Assembly: GCF_900499075.1 (NCBI RefSeq)
Contig: NZ_UIHC01000016.1
Span: 1 to 64,000, forward strand
Length of the DNA stretch: 64,000 nt
Reading direction: 5' to 3'
From: Roseinatronobacter ekhonensis
GTDB taxonomy: Bacteria; Pseudomonadota; Alphaproteobacteria; Rhodobacterales; Rhodobacteraceae
Made by a program: the position numbers and the translations under genes. Positions 50,932 to 64,000 of the stretch are shown here, piece by piece; positions within the stretch are counted from its first letter, which is position 1, and each line of letters begins with the position of its first letter. The notes beneath the pieces were generated by a model, which saw only the letters and a list, made by a program, of their open reading frames with translations, did not search any database and had not been told where the DNA came from.

Positions 50932-52101
50932 ATGACCAAAGCGCAGATCATAGGCTGGAGCCATACACCCTTCGGCAAGTCCGAGGCAGAGACAACCGAA
51001 GCCCTCATGGCCGAAGCTCTGCCCCCCGCGTTGGAACATGCGGGCATCGGCGCAGAAGATGTCGACGGCATTTTTGTGGGCGTCTACAACAACGGCTTTT
51101 CCCGCCAAGATTTCCAAGGCGCACTCGTCGCCATGGCGGACACGCGTTTCGCCCATACACCCGCCACGCGCTATGAAAACGCCTGTGCAACCGGATCGGC
51201 AGCCCTGCATGGCGCGATGGATTTCATCGAATCCGGGCGTGGGCGCATTGCGCTGGTCGTGGGTGCCGAAAAGATGACCGCCACCCCGATTGCAGAGGTC
51301 GGTGATATCCTTTTGGGGGCCAGCTACCGTGCCGAGGAAGCCGAGGTTGATGGTGGCTTCGCCGGCCTGTTCGGTCAGATCGCCGCCGGCTATTTCCAGC
51401 GTTATGGCGACAAATCCGAAGAACTGGCGATGATCGCCGCCAAGAACCACGCAAACGGCATGGCGAACCCTATGGCGCATATGCGCAAACCGTTTGACGT
51501 GGCGTTTTGCAACACGGTGTCCGACAAGAACCCGCGCGTGGCTGGTCCTTTGCGGCGCACCGATTGCTCGCTGGTCAGCGACGGCGCGGCGGTGCTGGTG
51601 TTGGCGGATGACGAAACAGCAGCAAGCATGGCCCGCGCGATAGCCTTTCGCGCGCGCGCGCAGGCCAATGACATCATGGCGCTGTCGCGCCGCGATGTGC
51701 TGGAATTCAAGGGCGCGCGCATGGCATGGGGGCAGGCCTTGGCCGATGCGGGTGTCACGCTGGACGACCTGTCCTTGGTCGAGTCGCATGACTGTTTTAC
51801 CATTGCCGAGATGCTGGAATATGAGGCGATGGGGCTGGCGGGACCGGGCCAAGGCGGCCGCGTGATCCGCGACGGCATTACCGCCAAGGATGGGCGCTTG
51901 CCGGTGAACCCATCTGGCGGGCTGAAATCCAAGGGCCACCCCATCGGGGCCACGGGTGTGTCGATGCATGTCATGGCCGCGCAACAGTTGACGCAGGATG
52001 CAGGCGACATGCAGATCCCAGGTGCGACCATGGCAGGCGTGTTCAACATGGGCGGGGCGGCGGTCACCAACTACGTGTCGATCATGGAGCGGGTGAAGTG
52101 A
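50932..52101 (+). CDS. acetyl-CoA acetyltransferase-like thiolase (SCP-x/non-decarboxylating type)
   Basis: A 389-residue thiolase-superfamily protein. The active cysteine is Cys85 in ENACATGSAALHGAM, and the C-terminal His is in KGHPIGATGVSMHVMA. HDCFTIAEMLEYE is typical of SCP-x-type thiolases. It probably forms or cleaves a 3-ketoacyl-CoA, although many members have no proven activity. It is the first gene of a three-gene operon (ligase, PPC protein) with overlapping ends. GGAGG is 6 bases before the ATG at 50932. Confidence 0.85.
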   Translation: MTKAQIIGWSHTPFGKSEAETTEALMAEALPPALEHAGIGAEDVDGIFVGVYNNGFSRQDFQGALVAMADTRFAHTPATRYENACATGSAALHGAMDFIESGRGRIALVVGAEKMTATPIAEVGDILLGASYRAEEAEVDGGFAGLFGQIAAGYFQRYGDKSEELAMIAAKNHANGMANPMAHMRKPFDVAFCNTVSDKNPRVAGPLRRTDCSLVSDGAAVLVLADDETAASMARAIAFRARAQANDIMALSRRDVLEFKGARMAWGQALADAGVTLDDLSLVESHDCFTIAEMLEYEAMGLAGPGQGGRVIRDGITAKDGRLPVNPSGGLKSKGHPIGATGVSMHVMAAQQLTQDAGDMQIPGATMAGVFNMGGAAVTNYVSIMERVK

Positions 52102-53672
52102 GCATGGACCTGTCGCAAGGCATGACGCCGGTTTCGACCCGCGTGATGAACCTGTCGCATCTGCTGTCTGAGAGCGCGCGCCGCGCGCCCGACGACATTG
52201 GGCTGGTCTGGGGTGACCAGTCCTGGACATGGGCCGAACTGGACGCCCGCGCCACCGCCTTTGCCCACGTTCTGGTGCAGGAATATGGCGTGGCCAAGGG
52301 CGACCGCGTGCTGGTGCAATCCGCGAATTGCAACCAGATGTTCGAAGCGGTCTTTGGCTGCTGGCGCGCGGGCGCCGTTTGGGTGCCTGCCAATTACCGC
52401 CAATCACCAGAGGATGTGGCTTTCCTTGCGCAATCGTCGGGCGCGAAGCTGCTGTTGTGCGGGGCGGAATTCGCGGATCACGCGAGCGCCTGCAACCTGC
52501 CAACCATCGCCATCGGGCAGGCCGCGTTCGGGCCGGACTATGACGCGCTGATCACGCCGCATATGGGCCAGCCGCAGCCGGTGGCAGAAGTTTGCCGAGA
52601 CGATCCGTGCTGGTTTTTCTTCACCTCCGGCACCACAGGGCGGCCCAAGGCGGCGGTGCTGACGCATGGGCAGATGGCCTTCGTCATCACCAACCACCTG
52701 TGTGACCTGATGCCCGCGACCGGGCCGGAGGATGCGTCGCTGGTCGTGGCACCACTGTCGCATGGCGCAGGCGTGCATCAACTGAGCCAAGTGGCGCACG
52801 GGGTGAAAACCATCCTGCCCGTAGGCGCGAAATTCGACCCGGACGAGTTGTGGGCGCTGGTCGCCAAATGGCGCGTGACCAACATGTTCACCGTGCCGAC
52901 AATCGTGAAGCTGCTGGTCGAACACCCGGCGGTGGATGCGCATGACCATGCATCCTTGCGCTATGTCATCTATGCAGGCGCGCCGATGTATCGCGCCGAC
53001 CAGATCCGCGCGCTGGAAAAGCTGGGTCCGGTACTGGTTCAGTATTTCGGCCTTGGCGAGGTGACGGGTAACATTACCGTCCTGCCGCCCGCGCATCACC
53101 ACATTGATGACGACACCATGCGCATTGGAACATGCGGCTTTGCCCGCACTGGCATGCATGTGCAGATACAGGATGCAGAAGGGCGCGAGGTCGCGGCAGG
53201 TGAGACAGGCGAGATTGCCGTCATCGGCCCCGCTGTGTTTGCAGGCTATTTCAACAACCCCAAGGCCAATGCCAAATCCTTCCGGGGTGGCTGGTTCCTG
53301 ACCGGTGATCTGGGGCATATGGACGAAGCTGGATTCGTCTATCTGACCGGGCGCGCATCGGACATGTATATCTCTGGCGGGTCGAACATCTACCCGCGCG
53401 AGATTGAAGAAAAGCTGCTGATGCACCCTGCGATTTCCGAAGTCGCGGTGCTGGGTGTGCCGGACCCGGTCTGGGGCGAAGTGGGGATGGCGGTCTGTGT
53501 GTGCACCGGCGCCCCGCCCGCCGACCTGCTGGACTGGTTGTCGGGCAAGATTGCCCGCTACAAGCTGCCGCGCCATGTGGTGTTCTGGGACGCATTGCCC
53601 AAATCCGCCTATGGCAAGATCACGAAAAAGATGATCCGCGACGAACTGGACGCGCGCGGACAATTGCCATGA
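52098..53672 (+). CDS. acyl-CoA synthetase (AMP-forming)
   Basis: A 524-residue ANL-superfamily ligase. The P-loop is FFFTSGTTGRPKAAVLTHGQ, the adenylate motif YFGLGEVTGN, the hinge YLTGRASDMYISGGSNIYPR, and the catalytic lysine lies near the end in KSAYGKITKKM. It activates a carboxylic acid to its CoA ester; the acid is not evident. The start may be the GTG at 52098 overlapping the thiolase stop, or the ATG at 52104. It overlaps the PPC gene by ATGA. Confidence 0.88.
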   Translation: MSMDLSQGMTPVSTRVMNLSHLLSESARRAPDDIGLVWGDQSWTWAELDARATAFAHVLVQEYGVAKGDRVLVQSANCNQMFEAVFGCWRAGAVWVPANYRQSPEDVAFLAQSSGAKLLLCGAEFADHASACNLPTIAIGQAAFGPDYDALITPHMGQPQPVAEVCRDDPCWFFFTSGTTGRPKAAVLTHGQMAFVITNHLCDLMPATGPEDASLVVAPLSHGAGVHQLSQVAHGVKTILPVGAKFDPDELWALVAKWRVTNMFTVPTIVKLLVEHPAVDAHDHASLRYVIYAGAPMYRADQIRALEKLGPVLVQYFGLGEVTGNITVLPPAHHHIDDDTMRIGTCGFARTGMHVQIQDAEGREVAAGETGEIAVIGPAVFAGYFNNPKANAKSFRGGWFLTGDLGHMDEAGFVYLTGRASDMYISGGSNIYPREIEEKLLMHPAISEVAVLGVPDPVWGEVGMAVCVCTGAPPADLLDWLSGKIARYKLPRHVVFWDALPKSAYGKITKKMIRDELDARGQLP

Positions 53673-54481
53673 TGCGCCACGTTGTGCACCCCGGCCCGGC
53701 GGTGGAACCGCGCGCAACTGCACTGCCGGTGCAGGCGCATCCGGTAGAGGTGGTGCTGCGCGCTGGTCTGCCCATTGGGCAGGCGGTGGCGCAGGCGCTG
53801 GACGGGTTCGATGGCGGGTTTCTGGACCTGCGCGACGTAGGTATGGACCCGCTGGCCTACGTAATCCCCGGCCCCGCGCAGAACGGTCACGCGGCGTGGT
53901 ATAGCGAAACGCACATGATGGGTGCGGGCGCAACTATCTTGCGGGGCTGCGTGCATATGGGCTGGCGCGAGGGCGCGCGGTTCACGCATACGCATGGCAT
54001 TTGGACCGACGCGAGCGGCAGGCGGCATATGGGGCATATCCTGCCGGATCAGGCGGAGGTCGCGCGCGATTGCACGGTGCGTGGATGGGGGCTGTCGGGC
54101 GGGTGTCTGGAGGCACGTCCCGACCCCGAAACGGCGTTTACGCTCTTCCGGCCAGAGCCACACCCGCGGCGCACAGGCGGCACCCCAGCGCATCTGGTTA
54201 CGCTGCGGCCCAATCAGGATATCGGCGCAGCGCTGGTCGGCCTGGGGCTGACTGGCCGCGTAATGGGCTTGGGAAGCCTGATCGGAACACGGATGCAGGA
54301 TGGCACGGCGTTGGAGAGCTATGCGACTGAGATATTTCTGACCGACGGGCATATCAGCCCAATGGGCGCACAGCTGGATGCCGCCAGCATAGGGTTGGAT
54401 GGGCGCATGATAGAGGGACGGTTGGCAGAGGGTGTGAATGCGGTTCTGGTCACAGCGGAGCTGTTGGTGCTGACCAAATAG
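53669..54481 (+). CDS. tandem PPC/DUF296-domain protein
   Basis: A 270-residue protein with two copies of the PPC (DUF296) fold. The first (residues 20-150) has FTHTHGIWTDASGRRHMGHI, with the histidines that bind metal in prokaryotic PPC proteins. The second (residues 160-268) has EIFLTDGHISPMGAQLDA and GRMIEGRLAEGVNAVLVTAE but lacks the full His set. The ATG at 53669 overlaps the ligase stop. PPC proteins are poorly understood in bacteria. The position in a thiolase-ligase operon suggests a role in the same pathway, with no defined function. Confidence 0.78.
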   Translation: MMRHVVHPGPAVEPRATALPVQAHPVEVVLRAGLPIGQAVAQALDGFDGGFLDLRDVGMDPLAYVIPGPAQNGHAAWYSETHMMGAGATILRGCVHMGWREGARFTHTHGIWTDASGRRHMGHILPDQAEVARDCTVRGWGLSGGCLEARPDPETAFTLFRPEPHPRRTGGTPAHLVTLRPNQDIGAALVGLGLTGRVMGLGSLIGTRMQDGTALESYATEIFLTDGHISPMGAQLDAASIGLDGRMIEGRLAEGVNAVLVTAELLVLTK

Positions 54482-54507
54482 CGGGCTGCGCCCAAGTCTA
54501 TCGTTTA

Positions 54508-54576
54508 GGGGGCTTTGCCCCCGTCCGACCCCTGTGCGGGGTCGGACTCCCCCAGGATATTTTTGCAAGGATGAAG
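54508..54576. repeat. double-hairpin intergenic element with AGGATATTTTTGCAAGGATGAA tail
   Basis: Two hairpins adjoin: GGGGGC/GCCCCC (54508-54522) and GTCCGACCCC/GGGGTCGGAC (54523-54547). They are followed by CCCCCAGGATATTTTTGCAAGGATGAA. The element separates two convergent operons and probably acts as a terminator in both directions. The tail matches the stretch at 8812-8831. From memory it belongs to a repeated intergenic family in Rhodobacteraceae. Confidence 0.65.
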
Positions 54577-54579
54577 GGG

Positions 54580-55800
54580 CTAGGCTTTGCCCTGCTTGAC
54601 CACGCCTGCGTCGAAGAGCGACGCGATTTCATTGTCGGGCAGGCCGATCACATCGCCGAGGATTGCTTCGGTATGTTCGCCCAGAACCGGCGCACGCGCG
54701 GGCGCTTCGCGCGGGTCGTGGCTGAACGCCATGGGCGTGCCGGGCACGCGGTAGCGCCCGATACCGGGCTGGTCGAGTTCGCTGAACATGGGGTTGTTGA
54801 GGGACATGTCATCGTCTTCGGCCACGGCCTCTTTGAAGTTGCGGAATTGCGACCATGTCACGCCCGCATCCTCGAAGGCCTGGGCGAAATCGGCGACCTT
54901 TCGGGCCGCGAACCACGGCCGCAGAATCTCGGTGATGGCGTGGCGGTGTTCCCAGCGCGCACCCTCGTCTGCCAGCGAGGTGCCAAGCTGCGCTTCGAGC
55001 GCGGCAATTGCCTCTGTCGTGCCGGTGACTTTTTGCAGCCCGCGCCATTGCCGGTCGGTCAGGCCAATGACCATGACGCGCTTGCCATCGGCGCAGAGGA
55101 AATCCTGCCCATAAGCGCCGTAAAGCGCGTTGCCGGATTTGGGGCGCGAGATACCGTTGACCTCGACCTCGCCGATCACGCCCAGATGCCCAAGCATGGC
55201 GGCGGCGACATCTTTCAGCGCCAGATCAACCGCCGACCCGTGGCCGTGGCGCAGGCGCTTTCGCTCTGCCGCCAGCAGCGCAGAGACGACCATGTTGCCC
55301 GCGATGCAGTCCCATGCGGGCAGCGCGTGGGCGACCGGGTCGGTGGAGCCTTCGGGCCCCGTCGCCATGGGAAAGCCCAAGCTGGGGTTGACGGTGTAGT
55401 CCACCGCCGGGCGGCCATGACGGTCGCCGGACAGCGTGACCATGCACAGGTCGGGGCGGCGAGCCGACAGCGTTTCATGATCCATCCAGCCGCGCACGCG
55501 CAGGTTGGTGATGAACAGCCCTGCATCCTCGCCCGGCGCGCAGATCAGTTCCGAAATGATCTCGCGCCCGCGGGGATGTTTCATGTCGATGGCGATGGAG
55601 CGTTTGCCCTTGTTCATGCCCGCCCAGAACATGCTTTGGCCAGAGGCGGCCACGGGCCAGCGCCCGGCATCAAGCCCGCCTTCGATCCGGTCGAAGCGGA
55701 TGACATCCGCCCCCATCTGCGCCAGCGTCATGCCCGCCAGCGGCACGGCCACGAAAGCCGAGCCTTCGACCACGCGCATACCTTTCAGGATGCCGCTCAT
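54580..55800 (-). CDS. mct: CaiB/BaiF CoA transferase, probable mesaconyl-CoA C1:C4 CoA transferase
   Basis: A 406-residue type III CoA transferase. The N-terminus (GMRVVEGSAFVAVPLAGMTL, then QMGADVIRFDRIEGGLDAGR) and the segment APGEDAGLFITNLRVRGW closely resemble, from memory, the Chloroflexus Mct, which moves CoA within mesaconyl-CoA from C1 to C4. The candidate catalytic Asp is Asp164 in LPAWD. It is the last gene of the sgaA-mcl-mtkAB-meh-mct operon and overlaps the hydratase gene by ATGA. A succinyl-CoA:itaconate or other dicarboxylate CoA transferase is the main alternative. Confidence 0.72.
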   Translation of the reverse strand: MSGILKGMRVVEGSAFVAVPLAGMTLAQMGADVIRFDRIEGGLDAGRWPVAASGQSMFWAGMNKGKRSIAIDMKHPRGREIISELICAPGEDAGLFITNLRVRGWMDHETLSARRPDLCMVTLSGDRHGRPAVDYTVNPSLGFPMATGPEGSTDPVAHALPAWDCIAGNMVVSALLAAERKRLRHGHGSAVDLALKDVAAAMLGHLGVIGEVEVNGISRPKSGNALYGAYGQDFLCADGKRVMVIGLTDRQWRGLQKVTGTTEAIAALEAQLGTSLADEGARWEHRHAITEILRPWFAARKVADFAQAFEDAGVTWSQFRNFKEAVAEDDDMSLNNPMFSELDQPGIGRYRVPGTPMAFSHDPREAPARAPVLGEHTEAILGDVIGLPDNEIASLFDAGVVKQGKA

Positions 55801-56678
55801 GCGGACCACTCCATCCGGGCCTGCATGCATTGATGGTTCGACGTGGCGGCCACGCTGAACAGGTCGACCGCCGGGGCGGCGGCGTCCATCTGGCCGACAA
55901 GGGCGGTGTCCTCTGTATGGAACATCGGGTGCACTCCTTTAAAGCGGAAGCGTTTGGGTGTCTGGCCGGTATGGCGACACGCGGCTTCCATCAGCAGGCA
56001 GGCCTGCATGGGGCCATGCACGATCAGGGCGGGATATTTCTCGACCTCGCGCGCGTAGGGCATGTCGTAATGAATGCGGTGCGCGTTGAAGGTCACCGCG
56101 GAAAAACGGAACAGGCGTGCTTCGTTCATCGGCACGACCTCGCGGAAATCGGGGGTGTCGGGCGCGGGAATGGCACGCGGCGGGCGGAATTCCTCGGGCA
56201 TGTCCAGGTAGACGATGTCCTGTTCCTCTCGGATGGACCCGTTCTTGCCGTGCAGATCATGGCCCACGCGGACGAAATACATGGACCCGGTGCTGCCCTG
56301 TTTTTCGGTCACGGCCAAGATTTCGGAGCGGCGGTGCAGGGTTTCCCCCACCTCTAGCGCACCCGTCCATTCCAGCTTGCCCCCCGCCCACATGCGGCGC
56401 GGATAGGGCAAGGGCGGCAGGAACCGCCCCAGCGCCGGGTGCCCGTCGCTGCCCAGTTCCGACAGCGGCACGAATTCGGGAAACGCGATCCAGTGCCACA
56501 AGGGCGGCAGGGGCGCGCCAATGCGCAGATCATGCGCGGGTGCCGCTGCGTGCGACAAGGTCGCGCCCATCATGCCCGCCAGGTTCGGCGTCAGTGCGCC
56601 ATCGTGTTCTTCCACGCGGCCGACCCATGCTTGGGGGTCGGCCACGGTCTTTTCGTCATACCCTTCGGGGTGCATCAT
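55797..56678 (-). CDS. meh: MaoC-fold hydratase, probable mesaconyl-C4-CoA (or itaconyl-CoA) hydratase
   Basis: A 293-residue protein with an N-terminal FAS1-like dehydratase domain (residues 15-160, GALTPNLAGMMGAT) and a C-terminal MaoC/hydratase-2 motif (FSAVTFNAHRIHYDMPYA, with candidate catalytic His203 and Asp205). This two-part form is that of mesaconyl-C4-CoA hydratase (Meh) of the 3-hydroxypropionate bi-cycle and of itaconyl-CoA hydratase; both give (S)-citramalyl-CoA. The neighbouring Mct-like and Mcl genes favour Meh. It overlaps mtkB and mct by four bases on each side. Confidence 0.7.
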   Translation of the reverse strand: MMHPEGYDEKTVADPQAWVGRVEEHDGALTPNLAGMMGATLSHAAAPAHDLRIGAPLPPLWHWIAFPEFVPLSELGSDGHPALGRFLPPLPYPRRMWAGGKLEWTGALEVGETLHRRSEILAVTEKQGSTGSMYFVRVGHDLHGKNGSIREEQDIVYLDMPEEFRPPRAIPAPDTPDFREVVPMNEARLFRFSAVTFNAHRIHYDMPYAREVEKYPALIVHGPMQACLLMEAACRHTGQTPKRFRFKGVHPMFHTEDTALVGQMDAAAPAVDLFSVAATSNHQCMQARMEWSA

Positions 56679-57571
56679 GCAGCAGCCTTTTTGCCAAGTA
56701 TCTCTGCCACCGTCACCCCCATGGAGGACGGGTTCGGCGCGACCTTGATGCCTGCTTCCTGCAAGATGACAACCTTTTCCTGCGCGCTTTCGCCAAAGGC
56801 AGAGATGATAGCGCCAGCATGGCCCATCTTCCGGCCCTTGGGCGCGGACAGCCCTGCGATATAGGCCGCGACCGGCTTGGTCATGTGATCGCGGATATAC
56901 TCGGCGGCTTCGGCTTCCTGTGGGCCACCGATTTCGCCGATCATCATCACGGCATCGGTGTCGGGATCATTCTCGAACAGTTCCAGAATGTCACGGAAGC
57001 TGGACCCGTTGATCGGGTCGCCACCAATGCCGACAGAGGTGGACACGCCAATGCCAAGTTCCTTCATCTGGCTGGCGGCCTCGTAGCCCAGCGTGCCGGA
57101 ACGGCCCACAATGCCCACGCGGCCCGGCATGTAGATATGCGGCGGCATGATGCCCATGAAGCCTACGCCGGGGCTGATAACGCCCGCGCAATTCGGCCCG
57201 ATCAGGCGCATCTTGCGGGTCTGCTTGTAGCGGCGCAGGAAGCGTTTGACCTTCATCATGTCTTGCGCCGGGATACCATCGGCCACGCTGACGGCCACGC
57301 GGATGCCCGCATCGGCGGCTTCCATCATCGCATCAGCGGCAACGGGCGGGGGCACAAACATCAAGGAGGCATCGGCGCCGGTTGCTTCCACCGCTTCGCG
57401 CACGGTGTTGAACACGGGCTTGCCCAGCACGGTGGTGCCGCCGCGACCCGGCGTCACGCCGCCCACGACATTGGTGCCGGTTTCGATCATTTCCTGCGCG
57501 TGGAACTGGCCGATCCGGCCAGAAATGCCCTGCACGATGATCTTGGTCTCGGGGGTGATTAGGATAGCCAT
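56675..57571 (-). CDS. mtkB: malate-CoA ligase (malate thiokinase) alpha subunit
   Basis: A 298-residue SucD-family subunit. It carries the CoA-binding region [18 protein letters not shown] and the phosphohistidine His251 in [13 protein letters not shown]. It differs from housekeeping SucD in segments such as [17 protein letters not shown] and [13 protein letters not shown], which I recognise from Methylobacterium MtkB. With MtkA it forms malyl-CoA from malate, CoA and ATP. A second succinyl-CoA synthetase is the alternative, but the adjacent malyl-CoA lyase argues for malate. Confidence 0.85.
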
Positions 57572-57586
57572 TGTGATGGTCCTTTC

Positions 57587-58759
57587 TTATGCAGCGGCAG
57601 CATTGGGGCGCGCCTTGACGGCAGCCTCTGCGGCTTCGGCAAGGGTGCCTGCGGTGATGATCGGCACATCGGCGGTTTCGAGGATGCGGCGACCTTCTTC
57701 CACATTCGTGCCCGCCAAACGGACGACCACGGGAATGGTCATGCCCACTTCTTTATAGGCTTGTACCACCCCTGCCGCGATCCAGTCGCAACGGTTGATG
57801 CCCGCGAAAATGTTGACAAGGATCACGCTCACATTCGGGTCGGTCAGAACCGTGCGGAACGCGGTCACAACGCGCTCTGCGCTGGCACCACCGCCGATGT
57901 CGAGGAAGTTGGCGGGTTCAGCGCCTGCCAGCTTGATCATGTCCATCGTGGCCATGGCCAGGCCGGCCCCGTTGATAATGCAGCCGATATCGCCGTCCAA
58001 CCCGATATAGGACAGGTCGGACTGTGCCGCCATCGCCTCGCGCGGGTCTTCCTGAGACAGGTCACGCAATGCTGCCACTTCGGGGCGGCGGAACATGGCG
58101 TTGGTGTCAAAGCTCATCTTGGCATCCAGCGCCACCAGATCGCCCGAGCCGGTGATGGCAAGCGGGTTGATCTCTACCATAGTTGCGTCCAGATCGCGGT
58201 AAGCGCGGTAGCAAGCGCGCAGGGTGTTGACCATCTGCCCGATCTGCGGACCCGACATGCCCAGACGGAATGCCAGCTCACGGGCCTCGAAATCACACAG
58301 CCCGCTTGCCGGATCGACAATCATGCGCACAAGGCTATCGGGGTCGTTTTCGGCCAGATCCTCAATCTCCATCCCGCCCGCGCCAGAGGCCACGATCATG
58401 ATGCGTTCCGATTTGCGGTCCAGCACGAACCCAAGATAGATTTCCTGCGCAATGTCAGTCGCCGCCTCTACCCAAAGGCGGTAGACGCCTTTGCCTGCTG
58501 GCCCGCTTTGCTTGGTCACAAGCTGGCGGCCAAGGATATCAGCAGCGAACTGACGGACTTCTTCGTCGGTGCGGCAGAACTTGACACCGCCCGCTTCACC
58601 GCGCCCACCCGAATGGATCTGCGCCTTAATAACGACCGGCAGACCGATCTCGCGCGCCTGAAAGGCGGCTTGCTCGGGCGAGTATGCCAGACCGCCTTGC
58701 GGCACCGGCACGCCGAATTTGGCCAGAATGTCCTTGGCTTGATGTTCGTGAATATCCAT
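57587..58759 (-). CDS. mtkA: malate-CoA ligase (malate thiokinase) beta subunit
   Basis: A 390-residue ATP-grasp subunit of the SucC family. It starts with MDIHEHQAKDILAKFGVPVP. The ATP-grasp region runs about residues 10-240 (VIKAQIHSGGRGEAGGVKFC and VEINPLAITGSGDLVALDAK), and the ligase domain has NGAGLAMATMDMIKLAGAEP and VNIFAGINRCDWIAAGVV. The length and several segments match Methylobacterium MtkA as I remember it. It is separated from mtkB by 15 bases. Generates malyl-CoA for the lyase encoded just upstream. Confidence 0.87.
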   Translation of the reverse strand: MDIHEHQAKDILAKFGVPVPQGGLAYSPEQAAFQAREIGLPVVIKAQIHSGGRGEAGGVKFCRTDEEVRQFAADILGRQLVTKQSGPAGKGVYRLWVEAATDIAQEIYLGFVLDRKSERIMIVASGAGGMEIEDLAENDPDSLVRMIVDPASGLCDFEARELAFRLGMSGPQIGQMVNTLRACYRAYRDLDATMVEINPLAITGSGDLVALDAKMSFDTNAMFRRPEVAALRDLSQEDPREAMAAQSDLSYIGLDGDIGCIINGAGLAMATMDMIKLAGAEPANFLDIGGGASAERVVTAFRTVLTDPNVSVILVNIFAGINRCDWIAAGVVQAYKEVGMTIPVVVRLAGTNVEEGRRILETADVPIITAGTLAEAAEAAVKARPNAAAA

Positions 58760-58786
58760 GGTCTCTCCTCCCTATGGAATGGGGTC

Positions 58787-59728
58787 TCAGCCCTTGGCCG
58801 CGATGGCTTCGGCCACGTCGATCAGGTTGCGCGCCATCTTCTCGGATGCGGCATCAATCATCTTGCCGTCCAGCGATGCAGCGCCTTTACCGGCTGCTTC
58901 GGCTTTCTTCAGCTCTTCGATGATGCGGTGCGCCTTGGTCACTTCGGATTCCGGCGGGCTGAACACTTCGTTCGCCAGCGCGATCTGGCTGGGGTGAATG
59001 GCCCATTTTCCTTCGCAGCCCAAAGCCGCCGCACGGCGCGCCCCGGCCTTATAGCCCTCTGGGTCCGAGAAGTCGCCAAACGGCCCGTCGACCGCGCGCA
59101 ACCCGTAAGCGCGGCAGGCCACGACCATACGGGTGATGGATGCGTGCCATTGGTCGCCCGGATAATCGGGGTTCAGACCGCCGATATTCGTGGTGCGGGC
59201 GCGCATGGATGCCGCGTAATCAGCAACCCCGAAATGCAGACATTCCAGACGCCCGCCAAACTGCGCAATGGCTTCGACATTGGCCATGCCCAGCGCGGTC
59301 TCGATCAGCGCTTCCAGACCGACGCGGGTTTTCAGACCGCAACCTTGCTCGATCTGGTTGACCATGGCCTCGACCATATACAGGTCCGACGGCACACCCA
59401 CTTTCGGCACCAGAAGCGTATGCACCCGGTCGCCAGCCTGTTCCATGATATCGACCACGTCGCGATACATGTAATGCGTGTCCAGACCGTTGATGCGCAC
59501 CGACACTGTCTTGCCCTTGGCAGCCCAGTCGATGTCGTTCAACAACTGCACGGCATTCTTGCGCGCTTGCTCTTTCTCTGGCGGCGCGACCGCGTCTTCT
59601 AGGTCCAGAAACACCACGTCGGCATCGCTGTCGGCGGCCTTTACCACCATGTCAATGTTGGATGCAGGCACGGCCAGTTCGGACCGGTGCAAACGCTGCC
59701 GCCGCAGCGGGTATAAAGTATGTGACAT
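58787..59728 (-). CDS. mcl: L-malyl-CoA / beta-methylmalyl-CoA lyase (HpcH/HpaI family)
   Basis: A 313-residue CitE-like lyase. Metal and substrate residues lie in VVFLDLEDAVAPPEKEQARK, INGLDTHYMYRDVVDI, ETALGMANVEAIAQ and VDGPFGDFSDPEGY. These are the hallmarks of malyl-CoA lyase of the serine cycle and of Rhodobacter Mcl1. It splits malyl-CoA to acetyl-CoA and glyoxylate, and can condense glyoxylate with propionyl-CoA to beta-methylmalyl-CoA. In Chloroflexus the homologue also cleaves citramalyl-CoA; whether this one does is the key open question. Confidence 0.9.
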   Translation of the reverse strand: MSHTLYPLRRQRLHRSELAVPASNIDMVVKAADSDADVVFLDLEDAVAPPEKEQARKNAVQLLNDIDWAAKGKTVSVRINGLDTHYMYRDVVDIMEQAGDRVHTLLVPKVGVPSDLYMVEAMVNQIEQGCGLKTRVGLEALIETALGMANVEAIAQFGGRLECLHFGVADYAASMRARTTNIGGLNPDYPGDQWHASITRMVVACRAYGLRAVDGPFGDFSDPEGYKAGARRAAALGCEGKWAIHPSQIALANEVFSPPESEVTKAHRIIEELKKAEAAGKGAASLDGKMIDAASEKMARNLIDVAEAIAAKG

Positions 59729-59752
59729 GCTATGTCCCTTTCTAGGATATGT

Positions 59753-60970
59753 TTATTCAGCCGCGATCGGGGTGCTTTCCACCACGCGGGGGCGGTCGCG
59801 GCGCTTGCCGTCCGACCAATAGCGTTGCGCGGCAGCAATGCCTGCGCCCAACTCGATATCGACACCCGCGCGCCACAAGGCCATTTCGGCCATGGACACC
59901 GCACCGGTAAGCGAGCCCTCATTCACCCAGCCCAAATGGCCGACGCGGAACACCCGCCCCGCCAAGCGGCCCAAGCCACCGCCGAAGGATGCGCCAAGCT
60001 CATCATGCGCGATGGCGATCACTTCGCGCGCATCTATGTGGATCGGTGTGCGAATGGCGGTCACGGTGTTGGAATATAACGTCGGGTGCTCGGCGACCAT
60101 CTCCAGCCCCCAAGCCTGCACAGCGGCGCGCACGCCGGTTGCCATGCGGGCATGGCGGGCAATGACGTTGTCCATCCCTTCGGTCTGCAACAGGTTTATG
60201 GCCGCGCGCATCCCGTGCAACAGCGGAATCGGCGGCGTGTATGGGAAAAACCCCTCGGTTTGCAGGTTCACCATATCGGCAAATTCGAAATAGGCGCGGC
60301 GCATGGTGGCGGTTTTCGCAGCCGCCATCGCTTTGTCGCTGACGCCAAGAATACCCAGACCCGCCGGACACATCAGACCTTTCTGGCTGCCGGTGACAGC
60401 CAGATCGACACCCCAGTCGGCCATCCGAAACTCGATAGAGCCGATGGACGACACGCCATCGACGAACAAGAGCGCGTCATGGAAACTCATGTCCAGCGCA
60501 CGGCGCACGGCGGCCACGTCAGAAGTGACACCCGTAGCCGTTTCATTATGCGTGACAAAGACAGCCTTGATGCTGTCGTCCTTGTCTGCGCCCAAACGGC
60601 GCTCGATTTCCTTCACTGGGCAGCCTGCGCCCCAAGCGACGTCGATCAACTCGACATCCAGCCCAAGGCGTTCGGCCATCTGCGCCCAAAGCACAGAGAA
60701 ATGGCCGTGACGCGCCATCAGCACGCGGTCCCCGGGGTTGAGCGTGTTTGTGATCGCGGCCTCCCATGCCGCAGAGCCGGAGCCGGGGAACAGGAACACA
60801 TTGCCCCCGTCCATGCGCAGAATCTCACGCAGGCCTGCGGTGATCTCGGTGGCCAGCGCCCCGAAACCGGGGGCGCGATGATCCTCTGCCGCCACATTCA
60901 TGGCGCGGCGCACCGCTTCTGGAATCGGCGTCGGGCCGGGGGTGAATAGATGTGTTTGTCCGATGGTCAT
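59753..60970 (-). CDS. sgaA: serine-glyoxylate aminotransferase
   Basis: A 405-residue class V PLP enzyme. The start at 60970 yields the family N-terminus QTHLFTPGPTPIPEAVRRAM. The PLP lysine is Lys197 in AVTGSQKGLMCP, and the loop FPGSGSAAWEAAITN is typical of SgaA/AGXT proteins. It transfers the amino group of serine to glyoxylate, giving hydroxypyruvate and glycine, a serine-cycle step. First gene of the minus-strand operon, divergent from the ScfR-type regulator. Confidence 0.9.
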   Translation of the reverse strand: MTIGQTHLFTPGPTPIPEAVRRAMNVAAEDHRAPGFGALATEITAGLREILRMDGGNVFLFPGSGSAAWEAAITNTLNPGDRVLMARHGHFSVLWAQMAERLGLDVELIDVAWGAGCPVKEIERRLGADKDDSIKAVFVTHNETATGVTSDVAAVRRALDMSFHDALLFVDGVSSIGSIEFRMADWGVDLAVTGSQKGLMCPAGLGILGVSDKAMAAAKTATMRRAYFEFADMVNLQTEGFFPYTPPIPLLHGMRAAINLLQTEGMDNVIARHARMATGVRAAVQAWGLEMVAEHPTLYSNTVTAIRTPIHIDAREVIAIAHDELGASFGGGLGRLAGRVFRVGHLGWVNEGSLTGAVSMAEMALWRAGVDIELGAGIAAAQRYWSDGKRRDRPRVVESTPIAAE

Positions 60971-61044
60971 GGCGGCGTCCTCCCAAACGCGATGACTGAC
61001 TATGCGGCACAAATAAGCTTTCGTGAATTCTTTCCGCGTCCTGC

Positions 61045-61097
61045 TGTAAATGCGAAGATTTACATGATATGATTTATGTAAATCTGTGAAATTTACA
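61045..61097. promoter_or_regulatory. four TGTAAAT/ATTTACA half-sites between sgaA and the regulator gene
   Basis: TGTAAAT (61045-61051) and ATTTACA (61058-61064) form one inverted repeat with a 6-base spacer. TGTAAAT (61077-61083) and ATTTACA (61091-61097) form a second with a 7-base spacer. The two left arms are 32 bases apart, about three helical turns. In addition GATTTACAT and ATGTAAATC pair across the middle. The second site overlaps the ribosome-binding site of the regulator (AGGA at 61097-61100), which suggests autorepression. The likely ligand protein is the regulator encoded next to it. Confidence 0.75.
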
Positions 61098-61109
61098 GGA
61101 CACAATCGT

Positions 61110-62516
61110 ATGCTGAAAACCTTTATCGGCCCCCGCCTGCGACGCCTGCGGCAGGAACACGGGCAGACCCAAAGCCAAATGGCGCGCGCGCTCGGGATTT
61201 CGACATCCTATGTCAACCTATTGGAAAAAAACGAAAGATCGGTTTCTGTTCCGGTATTGCTCAAGATATTCGAAACCTATGGCGTGGAATGGCGCGACAT
61301 CGCGGAAGATGACGACACCGCCACGCTGGCCGACCTGCGCGCAGCCCTTCATGACAATCTTTTCGACTCTGATCGCCCCGATTTGCCGCAACTGCGCGCG
61401 GCACAAATTCACAGCCCCGACCTTGTGGCGTCCTTCCTGACATTGCACCGCGCCTATCAGGCTGCGACAGATCAACTCATGTCGCTCGCCACCAGTGGAA
61501 CGGATGAAGGCGACGTGCTGCCCAGTTCGCCCGAAGCGGCGGTGCATAACTTCTTCCGGCGCAATCACAACCATTTCGCCGTGCTCGAATCGGTTGCGGC
61601 AGAGTTCTGGGGCGGCAAGGTCATTCCGGCAGATGACACCTACAGCGCCCTGAAAGGGCTGCTGCGCGACCGTCTGGGGCTGCATGTGCGGCTGGTCACG
61701 ACCGCAGACATGCCCGACACGCTGCGCGAATATGACGAAGCCGCTCGCGAGGTGCGGCTGTCAGAAGCGCTGGACCATCCCAACCGGGTGTTCCAGCTTG
61801 TGCATGTGGCCGGGCTGATCGAACATGCCGAACTGCTCGACAAGCTGCTGTCGCAATCGCGCATCACAGACCCGCATGGTCTGGCGCGCTGTCGGGTCGA
61901 ACTGACAAACTACTTCGCCGCAGCGGTGCTCATGCCCTACGGTGCGTTTCTGTCAGAGGCGCTGGCCTCGAAATACGATTTCACCCATCTGTCCACCCGC
62001 TTTGGTGTCAGCTTCGAGCAGGCATGCCACCGCGCCACCACATTGCAGCGCGCAGGCGCACAAGGGGTGCCGTTCTTCTTCGTGCGCATGGACAAGGCGG
62101 GGAATGTAACTAAGCGCTTCAACGCGACCGATTTTCACTTGGCCGAATATGGCGGGGCCTGTCCGCGTCTGGATGTACACACGTCGTTTCGCACGCCGGG
62201 CCAGATTGTACCGCAATTTGTGGAAATGCCGGATCGCAGCCAGTTCTTCGTCTTTTCCTGCTCTGTGGACCGTCCCAGCCTGTCGCGCCATGCAACCGAC
62301 GTTCGTTTGGCCGTGGCCATGGGCTGCGATGTCGAGCATGCGGCCCAGATCGGCTATGCTGAAAGCCTGCGTGCCAGCAAGACGCGGCCCGTACCCATCG
62401 GGATCAACTGCCGCACTTGCCCGCGCGTGGGCTGTGACCAGCGGGCGCATAACGCGGTGGTGTTGTCGAAGCCGGTCGATGCAAGACGGCGCGGGGCCAC
62501 GCGCTATGCAAGCTGA
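61110..62516 (+). CDS. short-chain acyl-CoA regulator (ScfR/PccR/RamB-like) transcription factor
   Basis: A 468-residue regulator with an N-terminal XRE-type helix-turn-helix (residues 5-65, TQSQMARALGISTSYVNLLE), a central region related to the ImmA/IrrE domain (VFQLVHVAGLIEHAELLDKL, with a degenerate metal motif), and a C-terminal domain ending in the cysteine cluster NCRTCPRVGCDQRAH. This is the ScfR layout, which includes PccR (propionyl-CoA carboxylase control in Rhodobacter) and RamB. These proteins sense short-chain acyl-CoAs. The start at 61110 has AGGA 9 bases upstream; a GTG at 61086 would lie within the operator. It is divergent from the mcl/mtk operon. Confidence 0.88.
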   Translation: MLKTFIGPRLRRLRQEHGQTQSQMARALGISTSYVNLLEKNERSVSVPVLLKIFETYGVEWRDIAEDDDTATLADLRAALHDNLFDSDRPDLPQLRAAQIHSPDLVASFLTLHRAYQAATDQLMSLATSGTDEGDVLPSSPEAAVHNFFRRNHNHFAVLESVAAEFWGGKVIPADDTYSALKGLLRDRLGLHVRLVTTADMPDTLREYDEAAREVRLSEALDHPNRVFQLVHVAGLIEHAELLDKLLSQSRITDPHGLARCRVELTNYFAAAVLMPYGAFLSEALASKYDFTHLSTRFGVSFEQACHRATTLQRAGAQGVPFFFVRMDKAGNVTKRFNATDFHLAEYGGACPRLDVHTSFRTPGQIVPQFVEMPDRSQFFVFSCSVDRPSLSRHATDVRLAVAMGCDVEHAAQIGYAESLRASKTRPVPIGINCRTCPRVGCDQRAHNAVVLSKPVDARRRGATRYAS

Positions 62517-62540
62517 CTGGGACGAGATGCCGCCGCTTTC

Positions 62541-63473
62541 TCAAAAGACCGCGTGATCGCCCAGATCGGTCACGGCATCGCCGCGCAACAGCGCCGCGTA
62601 ATGGTCGCGTAGCGTATCGGTGCCGAATTCGGGCGTGGCGTCTGCGTCGTATCGGCTGCCGTCCCAGACCAGCATCGATTCGGTCGCGTAATACCTACCG
62701 ATGCGCGCGAAATCGGCTTTGGCACGCAAACCGGGCACCATTCGCCCGCCCAAAGACAGTCCGGCGATAATCGCATCCATCACACCGACGGGCAGGCTGC
62801 GGAACTTGGGCGCTTTGCCCGTCATCTCAAACAGCATGTCGGCCTGCGCGCGCGGCGTGATCGCCGGTCCCGGCCCGCCAATCGGCAGAACGCCGACGCG
62901 CGCGGGGTCATCCAGACACCCGACGATGTATGCGGCCAGATCGCGGTCGGATATCGGCTTGCACGCGGTCAACCGCCCGTCGCCGAACAGCAGGAACGGT
63001 TTGCCCGCCTGCACCCGCGCCACCTGTCCCGAAAGCGATTTGAAAAACGCGGTCGGGCGAATGATGGAATGGCGCAGGCCGGATTGGGTCAGTTCCTGCT
63101 CGAACGCCAGTTTCGCGCGCTGGAATTCCAGAAGCGGCTTCTGGACGCATATGGCCGAGAGCAGCACAAAGTGTCGCACGCCCGCGCTTTGCGCCGCGCG
63201 CAGCAGCGCCAGATGGGCATCATGGTCCACCGCCCAAGCATCTGCAGGCGCACCGCTGCGCGACGCCATGCACGACATAACAGTCTCTACCCCCTCAAGC
63301 GCATCGGGCAAGAGCGCGTTTGGCTTGGTCAGGTCAGCCTCCAGCCTGCCCACCCCATCGGGCAAGGCGCGGCGTGACCGTGACAGGCAGGTTACAGAAT
63401 GCCCGTCGGCCAAGAGCCGGTCCAGAACCGCACGTCCGATGGTTCCGGTCGCACCCGCTAGTAGCACTTTCAT
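62541..63473 (-). CDS. bciA: divinyl (proto)chlorophyllide a 8-vinyl-reductase (BciA type)
   Basis: A 310-residue atypical SDR/NmrA-like reductase. It has the nucleotide loop KVLLAGATGTIGRAVLDRLL and segments I associate with BciA: SAICVQKPLLEFQRAKLAFE, IIRPTAFFKSLSGQV and FGDGRLTACKPISDRDLAAY. BciA reduces the 8-vinyl group of divinyl chlorophyllide during (bacterio)chlorophyll synthesis. It suggests a phototrophic organism. It overlaps the upstream LysR-type gene by four bases, which is unusual, as bciA is generally outside the main photosynthesis cluster. Confidence 0.85.
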   Translation of the reverse strand: MKVLLAGATGTIGRAVLDRLLADGHSVTCLSRSRRALPDGVGRLEADLTKPNALLPDALEGVETVMSCMASRSGAPADAWAVDHDAHLALLRAAQSAGVRHFVLLSAICVQKPLLEFQRAKLAFEQELTQSGLRHSIIRPTAFFKSLSGQVARVQAGKPFLLFGDGRLTACKPISDRDLAAYIVGCLDDPARVGVLPIGGPGPAITPRAQADMLFEMTGKAPKFRSLPVGVMDAIIAGLSLGGRMVPGLRAKADFARIGRYYATESMLVWDGSRYDADATPEFGTDTLRDHYAALLRGDAVTDLGDHAVF

Positions 63474-64000
63474 GCCGCCCCCTCGCGCGCTTTCGACAAG
63501 CGCCGCGCCTGTGCCAGAAGTGCGGCCAGAACCGGCGTGTGCGGTTCACGGTACGGGGCGATCAGCCCGACCTCTTTCGCGCCCTGCCCGCCTTGCAGCG
63601 GAATCGCAGATAGTTCCGGGCGCGCGGCGAGCAGCGCCGCGGTGTCGGCATTCACGATGCTGACCCACTCGCCGGTCAGGACATGCGCCACCAGCGCAAT
63701 GATAGAGTTGGATTCGATGCGCGGCGTGATCGGCACGCCTGCCTGAGTCAGTTCATGATTGATGATGCGGCGGTTTTGCATGTCATCGGTCAAAAGACAC
63801 AGCGGCAACCCGGCCAGATCGGCCCATCCCAAAGCCGATTGCTGCGCGCAGGGGCGGCTTTTGGCGGTCAAAAGCAGGTAGCGTTCGGTGTAGAGCGGTT
63901 CGGTCACGACACGGCCCAGAGGTTCGTTATCCAGATAGCTGATGCCCGCATCCAGCCGCAAGTCATCGATCTGTTGCAATATCTCTATGGAACTGCGTGA
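63470..64000 (-). CDS. LysR-family transcriptional regulator, 3' part (truncated by the window end)
   Basis: The visible 177 residues or so are the substrate-binding domain of a LysR-type regulator: RLDAGISYLDNEPLGRVVTE, PLYTERYLLLTAK and NSIIALVAHVLTGEWVSIVN. The N-terminal helix-turn-helix lies beyond position 64000. The ATG at 63979 is internal. It overlaps bciA by ATGA, so the two are probably co-transcribed. The effector is unknown; the domain looks like the formate-dehydrogenase or nitrogen-type LysR subgroup but this is uncertain. Confidence 0.85.
   Translation of the reverse strand, partial: SRSSIEILQQIDDLRLDAGISYLDNEPLGRVVTEPLYTERYLLLTAKSRPCAQQSALGWADLAGLPLCLLTDDMQNRRIINHELTQAGVPITPRIESNSIIALVAHVLTGEWVSIVNADTAALLAARPELSAIPLQGGQGAKEVGLIAPYREPHTPVLAALLAQARRLSKAREGAA

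Follow-up and report, generated by a model that had tools for sequence, protein, structure and literature searches.

Which route of carbon metabolism would be served by an operon in which genes for ATP-dependent malate cleavage adjoin relatives of two enzymes of the 3-hydroxypropionate bi-cycle? The question is raised by a 64,000-nucleotide stretch of the Roseinatronobacter ekhonensis genome (contig NZ_UIHC01000016.1, positions 1 to 64,000, hereafter the window), in which six minus-strand genes encode a glyoxylate-type aminotransferase, a malyl-CoA lyase, both parts of a malate thiokinase, a Meh-like hydratase and an Mct-like CoA transferase. Comparison of these sequences points to an operon that would couple ATP-dependent malate cleavage to an exit from mesaconyl-CoA, a reading to which we give a probability of roughly 0.68. 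The likely role of the Mct-Meh pair would be to lead from mesaconyl-C1-CoA to pyruvate and acetyl-CoA. The contig (G000:C134 in our numbering) belongs to an assembly of 3.9 Mb in 196 contigs, listed as 100% complete.

The original prediction, made from the letters of the window alone, had described six genes running on the minus strand from 54580 to 60970. All six reading frames were confirmed at these places, and the four-base overlaps said to join the last three genes were read directly in the sequence as ATGA at mtkA/meh and meh/mct. The gene order is not due to chance, since 8 of the family genomes sampled, the window genome among them, have the same order. The features are as follows.

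54580-55800, minus strand: mct-like gene, Mct-like CoA transferase; the ATG start overlaps the meh stop (ATGA), and the open reading frame (ORF) is open from 55830
55797-56678, minus strand: meh-like gene, MaoC/FAS1-DH hydratase, probable mesaconyl-C4-CoA hydratase (citramalyl-CoA forming); overlaps the mtkA stop (ATGA)
56675-57571, minus strand: mtkA, malate thiokinase alpha (PRK05678 and sucCoAalpha models; named after its MtkB partner)
57587-58759, minus strand: mtkB, malate thiokinase beta (PRK14046, malate-CoA ligase beta)
58787-59728, minus strand: mcl, malyl-CoA/beta-methylmalyl-CoA lyase of the Methylobacterium/Rhodobacter type (PDB scores, tree, residues)
59753-60970, minus strand: class V aminotransferase of the glyoxylate type, SgaA/BhcA-like (BhcA model, 6pk1)
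61044-61097, no strand: divergent promoter with two boxes, probable operator of the regulator (repeats and conservation)
61110-62516, plus strand: ScfR-family acyl-CoA responsive transcription regulator, RamB-like, divergent from the operon (PF09856, PF06114, HTH_3); the ORF is open from 61086

Enzyme families encoded by the operon

From its sequence the transferase is best called Mct-like. Its best model was that of mesaconyl-CoA isomerase (TIGR04253), matched over the full length, and its best PDB entries were 7xkg (516 bits) and 8apq (502 bits, deposited as 2-methylfumaryl-CoA isomerase), with the next PDB family at 113 bits. It shares 58% identity with a Roseiflexus Mct, as against 26% with putative itaconate CoA-transferases. 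The Mct tree placed the window protein in a 43-row clade (100/100) that was sister to the Chloroflexus/Accumulibacter clade (80/60 for their union). The expectation that the transferase would stand apart from the itaconate type was thus borne out, by identity and by distance in the tree. This tree took in 26 of the 80 Mct loci scanned; the 80 were the best of 571 relatives, ranked by likeness to the Roseiflexus Mct, and are not a fair sample.

The Meh-like protein, the only one of its kind in the window genome, gave a weak Pfam match (PF13452, 37 bits) and no match in the NCBIfam scan. Its PDB matches, each at 192 bits, were all of the Ich type: the itaconyl-CoA hydratase 8khg and 8huc, which is named MaoC_dehydrat_N protein. 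It was 40% identical to a Roseiflexus Meh and 43-44% identical to the Ich-type (itaconyl-CoA) hydratases of Pseudomonas and Variovorax. In a tree of 80 rows, from which matches shorter than 190 residues had been dropped, it grouped with hydratases encoded at Mct loci in the same family and in Competibacteraceae, Rhodoplanes and Roseospira, in a clade of 43 rows (100/99). In this sample, gathered through Mct, the clade was apart from both the Chloroflexus/Accumulibacter clade and the Ich-type rows. The five 'ich' rows owe their name to homology with the Pseudomonas gene; of these, the Pseudomonas row alone lies in a cluster resembling the published itaconate cluster, whereas the Paracoccus and Sulfitobacter rows lie in clusters of another kind. 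On whether the hydratase too keeps away from the itaconate enzymes, tree and identity differ: it grouped with Mct-adjoining hydratases in the tree, but by identity it is as close to Ich (43%) as to the Roseiflexus Meh (40%). According to PMC12290011, an itaconyl-CoA hydratase hydrates mesaconyl-C4-CoA as well, so that the same step is predicted whichever ancestry Meh has.

For the malate side of the operon, MtkB scored 658 bits with the malate-CoA ligase beta model PRK14046, above the curated cut-off of 604, and MtkA passed both succinate-CoA ligase alpha models (PRK05678, 417 bits with a cut-off of 336; sucCoAalpha, 389 bits with a cut-off of 353). The window lyase scored 396 bits with 5ugr, which we take to be the lyase of Methylobacterium acting on malyl-CoA and beta-methylmalyl-CoA, 294 bits with 4l9y and 170 bits with 4l7z of the Chloroflexus type. 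It was 48% identical to the Rhodobacter Mcl and was placed with the Methylobacterium/Rhodobacter lyases in the lyase tree. The rows of this tree were hand-picked, the 'mcl2' rows for their likeness to the Mcl2 of the window genome, and the Mcl2 and Ccl rows lay on one side. At all eight tabulated positions (D42, E44, D45, R76, E141, A167, D168 and D299) the window lyase has the residue of the Rhodobacter lyase 4l9y. PMC3832036 describes, in Rhodobacter numbering, the catalytic residues, among them Glu141 and Asp168 as the Mg ligands, together with Arg76 and Asp299, and a small Ala167 that gives propionyl-CoA room. The label sgaA for the first gene proved loose: a glyoxylate-type aminotransferase it is, and its best NCBIfam model was BhcA (L-aspartate-glyoxylate aminotransferase, NF045640; 536 bits, short of the cut-off of 650), with the serine-glyoxylate aminotransferase 6pk1 as the best solved structure (383 bits).

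Partner genes and the predicted route

The original prediction held that only Mch was missing. This is true of the operon; Mch is encoded elsewhere in the genome (G000:C114:46586-47515), where it adjoins an Mcl2-like gene. It scored 440 bits with 4e3e, presumably the Chloroflexus enzyme, and 415 bits with 8hgn (named beta-methylmalyl-CoA dehydratase). The Mcl2-like protein has a Glu in place of the lyase Asp299, an exchange that marks malyl-CoA thioesterases in PMC3832036. Mcl1 (G000:C109) shares 86% identity with its Rhodobacter sphaeroides counterpart, which makes the original prediction's description of the organism as Rhodobacteraceae-type reasonable, and Ccr (G000:C97) scored 616 bits with a curated cut-off of 379. 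The genome thus holds three markers of the ethylmalonyl-CoA (EMC) pathway, Ccr, Mch and Mcl1, and for the C5 branch of the bi-cycle it holds Mct-like, Meh-like, Mch and lyase genes.

Propionyl-CoA carboxylase, which like Ccr had been named as a gene to look for, was present in 20 of 21 selected genomes, the window genome included. Isocitrate lyase was found in none of these 21 genomes. A search for the methylcitrate cycle had also been suggested; PrpB was above its cut-off in none of the 21, and weaker matches occurred in nine, the window genome not being among them (E <= 1e-40). The window genome has three PF03328 proteins, two of the lyase type and a third with the thioesterase-type Glu, and all three were under the cut-off for citramalyl-CoA lyase (RipC/Ccl; 159-183 bits against 375). 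With no protein of RipC/Ccl grade and the third one thioesterase-like, the cleavage of citramalyl-CoA would have to fall to one or other of the two Mcl lyases.

Families, gene order, conserved residues, the presence of partner genes and their co-occurrence are results read at the level of sequence; from these we infer each reaction, the direction of flow and the ligand of the regulator. Malate thiokinase and the lyase would convert malate via malyl-CoA to acetyl-CoA and glyoxylate, and the aminotransferase would turn glyoxylate into glycine. Either the window lyase or Mcl1 of the EMC pathway would join glyoxylate to propionyl-CoA, forming beta-methylmalyl-CoA, which Mch would interconvert with mesaconyl-C1-CoA. 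Mct would then shift the CoA from C1 to C4, Meh would hydrate mesaconyl-C4-CoA to (S)-citramalyl-CoA, and a lyase would split the latter into pyruvate and acetyl-CoA. The net result would be the second half of the 3-hydroxypropionate bi-cycle attached to the EMC pathway at the level of mesaconyl-C1-CoA; malate thiokinase would take the part that the succinyl-CoA:malate CoA-transferase has in the bi-cycle.

Linkage of the two modules and the source of mesaconyl-C1-CoA

Mct-like proteins (E <= 1e-60) were detected in 31 of 198 genomes of the family and in 39 of 289 genomes of the class. The family loci examined also numbered 31, the window and 30 loci from 29 genomes; an Mct split over contig ends (G327) and a second copy of 43% in G445 were left out. 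Meh adjoined Mct in 26 of the 31 loci. The order aminotransferase-lyase-thiokinase-Mct was found in seven, of which L066 was without Meh, and the search for the lyase added an eighth joined operon (L238, with an Mct truncated where the contig ends), which gives joined operons in 8 genomes of the 198-genome sample, seven of them with Meh. A Meh-Mct pair without malate-cleaving genes occupied 20 of the 31 loci, and five, L066 included, had an Mct without an adjoining Meh. Four of the 20 lone pairs (L047, L067, L068, L073) had a contig end just upstream of Meh; a lyase of the window type was not found in the genomes of those four (G486, G418, G347, G403).

The window-type lyase (at least 69% identical) was present in 22 of the 198 family genomes. 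It was followed by mtkB in all 22 and by mtkA in 21, with a contig end in the other, and it had the aminotransferase upstream in 19 and ScfR in 16. By Fisher tests that ignore descent, Mct occurred in 15 of the 22 lyase/thiokinase genomes against 16 of 176 others (p = 2e-9), in 8 of 14 against 16 of 176 once the 8 linked genomes were removed (p = 4e-5), and in 7 of 13 when G373 with its divergent Mct was removed too (p = 2e-4). A single clade of the joined copies was rejected for Mct (approximately unbiased test, p-AU 9e-10) and for Meh (p-AU 0.037), using 34 Mct and 30 Meh rows from the family plus four outgroup loci and omitting the divergent L090. For Mct and Meh, the trees thus speak against a single origin of the joined operon. 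The lyase/thiokinase proteins, by contrast, put the joined genomes into one group, which also takes in the unjoined L231 and is weakly supported inside. These sequences fit a history of two joining events as well as one of a single joining with later replacement of Meh-Mct and a split, and either history suggests that the combination is useful. The predicted tie between malate cleavage and Mct-Meh is thus non-random, both in co-occurrence and in the trees of the joined copies.

A number of observations weigh against the proposed coupling. The Mct-like protein scored 532 bits with TIGR04253 and did not reach the curated cut-off of 725. Among nine other copies scored for calibration, those of the Roseiflexus, Chloroploca and Accumulibacter loci gave 781-864 bits, that of a Burkholderiales Mct-lyase-Mch cluster 695 and L112 493. 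The copies beside Meh in Contendobacter (Competibacteraceae), Rhodoplanes and Roseospira were also below the cut-off (587-606), and a Pseudonocardiales copy without an adjoining Meh scored higher, at 613, likewise below it. Residues L43, R47, N100 and D165 were present in all seven joined Mct copies aligned, the window's among them, and in nearly all rows of each Mct-like group aligned; because of this they are no proof of substrate, and L43 and R47 are weaker as a diagnostic than the structural papers suggest. Positions 132 and 133 of the window Mct differ from the Roseiflexus enzyme. Identity does not separate Meh from itaconyl-CoA hydratase, and the window lyase was not in the trifunctional Chloroflexus-type clade of the lyase tree. 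In PMC3832036, however, the Rhodobacter Mcl also forms citramalyl-CoA, from acetyl-CoA, at a 200-fold excess of pyruvate, so a place outside that clade does not exclude the last step. As to distribution, a Meh-like neighbour was found in just 9 of 30 Mct-like loci from other alphaproteobacterial families. In the joined operon L066 (G449) Mct follows mtkA directly with no adjoining Meh or ScfR match, the best Meh-like match elsewhere in that genome being 37% identical. The lyase/thiokinase type was without Mct in 6 of 22 genomes, so that this operon has a role of its own. Descent, disregarded in the Fisher tests, and the choice of the group for the single-clade test, which was named after the first trees, belong here as well.

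Position 314 of Mct, an Arg in Roseiflexus and Gly or Lys in the joined copies, was discarded as evidence, as Gly or Lys also occurred in 10 of 34 rows of the Chloroflexus/Accumulibacter range.

The original prediction had proposed co-assimilation of propionyl-CoA and glyoxylate. The enzyme families, the partner genes and the link between the modules are in keeping with such a route, but its feed is less certain, as acetate entering through the EMC pathway fits the same enzymes equally. On these sequences the two leading readings would employ the same enzymes and differ only in the source of the mesaconyl-C1-CoA pool. With acetate as the main feed, carbon would pass via Ccr and methylsuccinyl-CoA to mesaconyl-C1-CoA and on through Mct, Meh and a malyl/citramalyl-CoA lyase, and the lyase and thiokinase genes would deal with the malyl-CoA side. 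The derived net is acetyl-CoA + CO2 + 2 NADPH to pyruvate + CoA + one reduced electron-transferring flavoprotein, with no ATP and no C4 decarboxylation. We regard this as a serious possibility, at rather less than even odds. The 20 lone Meh-Mct pairs, several of them in a tuf-nusG-ribosomal protein region, and the lack of isocitrate lyase in the 21 genomes speak for it. So does regulation as described in PMC10370305, where Paracoccus RamB answers CoA esters of the EMC pathway and its target is induced by acetate but not by propionate, glyoxylate or both, which tells against a feed of propionyl-CoA and glyoxylate. Ccr was present in 30 of the 31 Mct-bearing family genomes, but it is near-universal in the family (180 of 198) and hence not enriched with Mct (30 of 31 against 150 of 167, p = 0.32), and the joining of Mct-Meh to malate thiokinase is left unexplained. 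The lone pairs favour the acetate feed and the joined operon favours propionyl-CoA and glyoxylate.

We also put forward, tentatively and as rather less probable than its opposite, that Meh-Mct is a two-gene graft which makes of the EMC pathway a natural, oxygen-tolerant route from acetyl-CoA and CO2 to pyruvate. The exit to pyruvate and acetyl-CoA would spend no ATP and make no C4 acid for later decarboxylation, and the version with the malate-lyase operon would add a regulated entry for C4 acids and propionyl-CoA to the same exit. The natural routes listed in a 2024 paper on a synthetic acetyl-CoA-to-pyruvate route (PMC11599936), the EMC pathway included, reach C3 via a decarboxylated C4 compound.

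In several genera (L065, L069, L072 and relatives), lone Meh-Mct pairs lie among the tuf, nusG and ribosomal protein genes, a place that resembles an insertion site. Their neighbours, named by eye as tuf, nusG and ribosomal genes, a penicillin-acylase-like protein and potassium uptake genes, were uninformative as a clue to function.

It is unlikely that one promoter serves two unrelated functions, with one module for glyoxylate and glycine in the manner of the serine cycle and another, independent of it, for C5 acids. Both modules do occur by themselves, the lyase/thiokinase operon in the six genomes without Mct and Meh-Mct at most Mct-bearing family loci, but they co-occur even where unlinked (p = 4e-5, as above), the differing origins of the joined copies suggest a functional tie, and acetyl-CoA, glyoxylate and the lyase are common to both. 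A reversed, citramalate-cycle-like flow, in which acetyl-CoA and pyruvate would pass via citramalyl-CoA to propionyl-CoA and glyoxylate for anaplerosis, appears distinctly improbable. Malyl-CoA lyase reactions are reversible, and PMC8307300 mentions a citramalate cycle as reported in Rhodospirillum rubrum and as a proposal for Rhodobacter sphaeroides, but citramalyl-CoA formation needed the said pyruvate excess where it was seen, and the EMC-pathway genes already lead to the same products. Degradation of itaconate (or mesaconate), with Mct as itaconate CoA-transferase (Ict), Meh as itaconyl-CoA hydratase and the lyase as citramalyl-CoA lyase, shares a homologous hydratase and the intermediate citramalyl-CoA with the operon and could draw on the Ich-type matches of Meh, on the RipC/Ccl model as top NCBIfam score of the window lyase (below cut-off) and on two further CoA-transferases of the genome that are 34-35% identical to Ict and may have an Ict-like function, but after checks of identity, tree, residues and lyase inventory it is very unlikely, as the window transferase lies far from the Ict-type references (which were named by gene neighbourhood), the L43 position is occupied by D, D and G in three transferase reference rows (the third, L250, being unannotated), and no lyase-family protein exceeds the RipC/Ccl cut-off.

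Regulator, related systems and neighbouring genes

The original prediction had omitted the divergent ScfR gene and its promoter box. The protein scored 188 bits with PF09856 (ScfRs), matched PF06114 and HTH_3, and gave 344 bits with the RamB model NF038139, below the cut-off of 700. Two boxes lie in the promoter, TGTAAAT-N6-ATTTACA (61045-61064) and TGTAAAT-N7-ATTTACA (61077-61097). The first of these, as GCTGTRA...TTYACA, was kept with variation in all 16 aligned promoters, which were those of the window and 15 other ScfR-bearing lyase-operon loci with and without joined Mct. The pattern, itself drawn from these promoters, occurred once in the window, with 0.06 expected by chance at up to three mismatches. 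In Paracoccus, the same-family regulator RamB binds a pair of similar boxes, and its strongest response is to beta-methylmalyl-CoA (PMC10370305). The predicted lyase step would yield this same ester, and by analogy the window regulator probably senses one of the CoA esters of the pathway and would switch the operon. The likeness to the RamB/PccR type described there extends to an ScfR gene divergent from an operon and two similar promoter boxes; the window ScfR differs in facing a lyase/thiokinase/Mct operon, not the glyoxylate cycle, and in scoring below the RamB cut-off.

The closest known system is the second half of the bi-cycle in Chloroflexus, and in Accumulibacter, which shares Mct, Meh, Mch, a malyl-CoA-type lyase and the predicted chemistry. 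It differs in that the window Mch is encoded away from the operon, malate is activated by an ATP-dependent thiokinase and not by CoA transfer, the window lyase lies in the Rhodobacter/Methylobacterium part of its tree, and the window Mct and Meh belong to other clades. Among the best 80 of 571 Mct relatives, the order Mct-lyase-Mch was found in 23 loci, 20 of which have a divergent Meh upstream. Compact Meh-lyase-Mct operons were found at 15 of the same best 80 loci, mostly in Competibacteraceae and Rhodoplanes, with a few others (L155-L157, L159, L163, L164, L170-L173, L175, L176, L191, L192, L198). Their Meh and Mct share clades with those of the window, whereas the lyase forms a separate clade; thiokinase and ScfR genes were not found in these 15 loci.

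Partial 3-hydroxypropionate bi-cycles in the heterotrophs Kentron, Thiosymbion, Competibacter, Riegeria and Accumulibacter are mentioned in PMC6593406, and bi-cycle enzymes in the heterotroph Porphyrobacter in PMC10674011; that heterotrophs have bi-cycle enzymes is already known. The likeness to the serine-cycle genes of methylotrophs is confined to the first four operon genes (glyoxylate aminotransferase, mtkA, mtkB and the malyl-CoA lyase, nearest 5ugr by score). Other serine-cycle genes were not recognised among the 30 window proteins scanned, and no genome search for them was made. The idea of co-assimilation reportedly comes from Chloroflexus (Zarzycki and Fuchs, 2011). In a literature search of openly licensed PMC papers, mostly as listings, we recognised no description of this operon or of an Mct-Meh exit from the EMC pathway. 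As far as these searches go, two things appear to be new: in this family, Mct-Meh joined to malate thiokinase with an ScfR gene alongside, and, in genomes with the EMC pathway, Meh-Mct as a lone pair.

If the reading is true, a sizeable minority of the family (31 of the 198 genomes sampled carry Mct-like genes) would directly link its acetate/propionate pathway to pyruvate, in some under a CoA-ester-sensing switch of its own. Flux models of acetate and propionate use in these bacteria would change, a natural counterpart to synthetic acetyl-CoA-to-pyruvate designs would be at hand, and there would be a clean setting in which to ask when bi-cycle enzymes serve heterotrophs.

Two further observations concern Mct relatives. 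One alphaproteobacterial Mct, the same sequence in L095 and L134, was 75% identical to the Roseiflexus Mct, and its adjoining Meh grouped away from the Chloroflexus clade, perhaps by horizontal transfer. At 18 of the best 80 of 571 loci, in Actinomycetota, soil Proteobacteria and others, an Mct-like gene came after one whose product shares 27-32% identity with Mch, and Meh gave no match; five of the 18 also had a nearby lyase match (L150, L161, L162, L166-L168, L174, L178-L180, L185, L187, L189, L190, L194, L196, L197, L199). These pairs perhaps represent another use of Mct-type transferases.

The Rfam scan of positions 52000-64000 gave no match. Just beyond mct, and facing it, lies a plus-strand ORF (53657-54481) without a Pfam or NCBIfam match at 1e-5; it has a counterpart in the same-genus locus L062. 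Genes for a thiolase-like protein (PRK07516) and an acyl-CoA synthetase (PRK07470), on the plus strand at 50935-53672, converge on the operon. This pair is absent from that place in the other joined loci, and in L062 it is found there at 93-94% identity.

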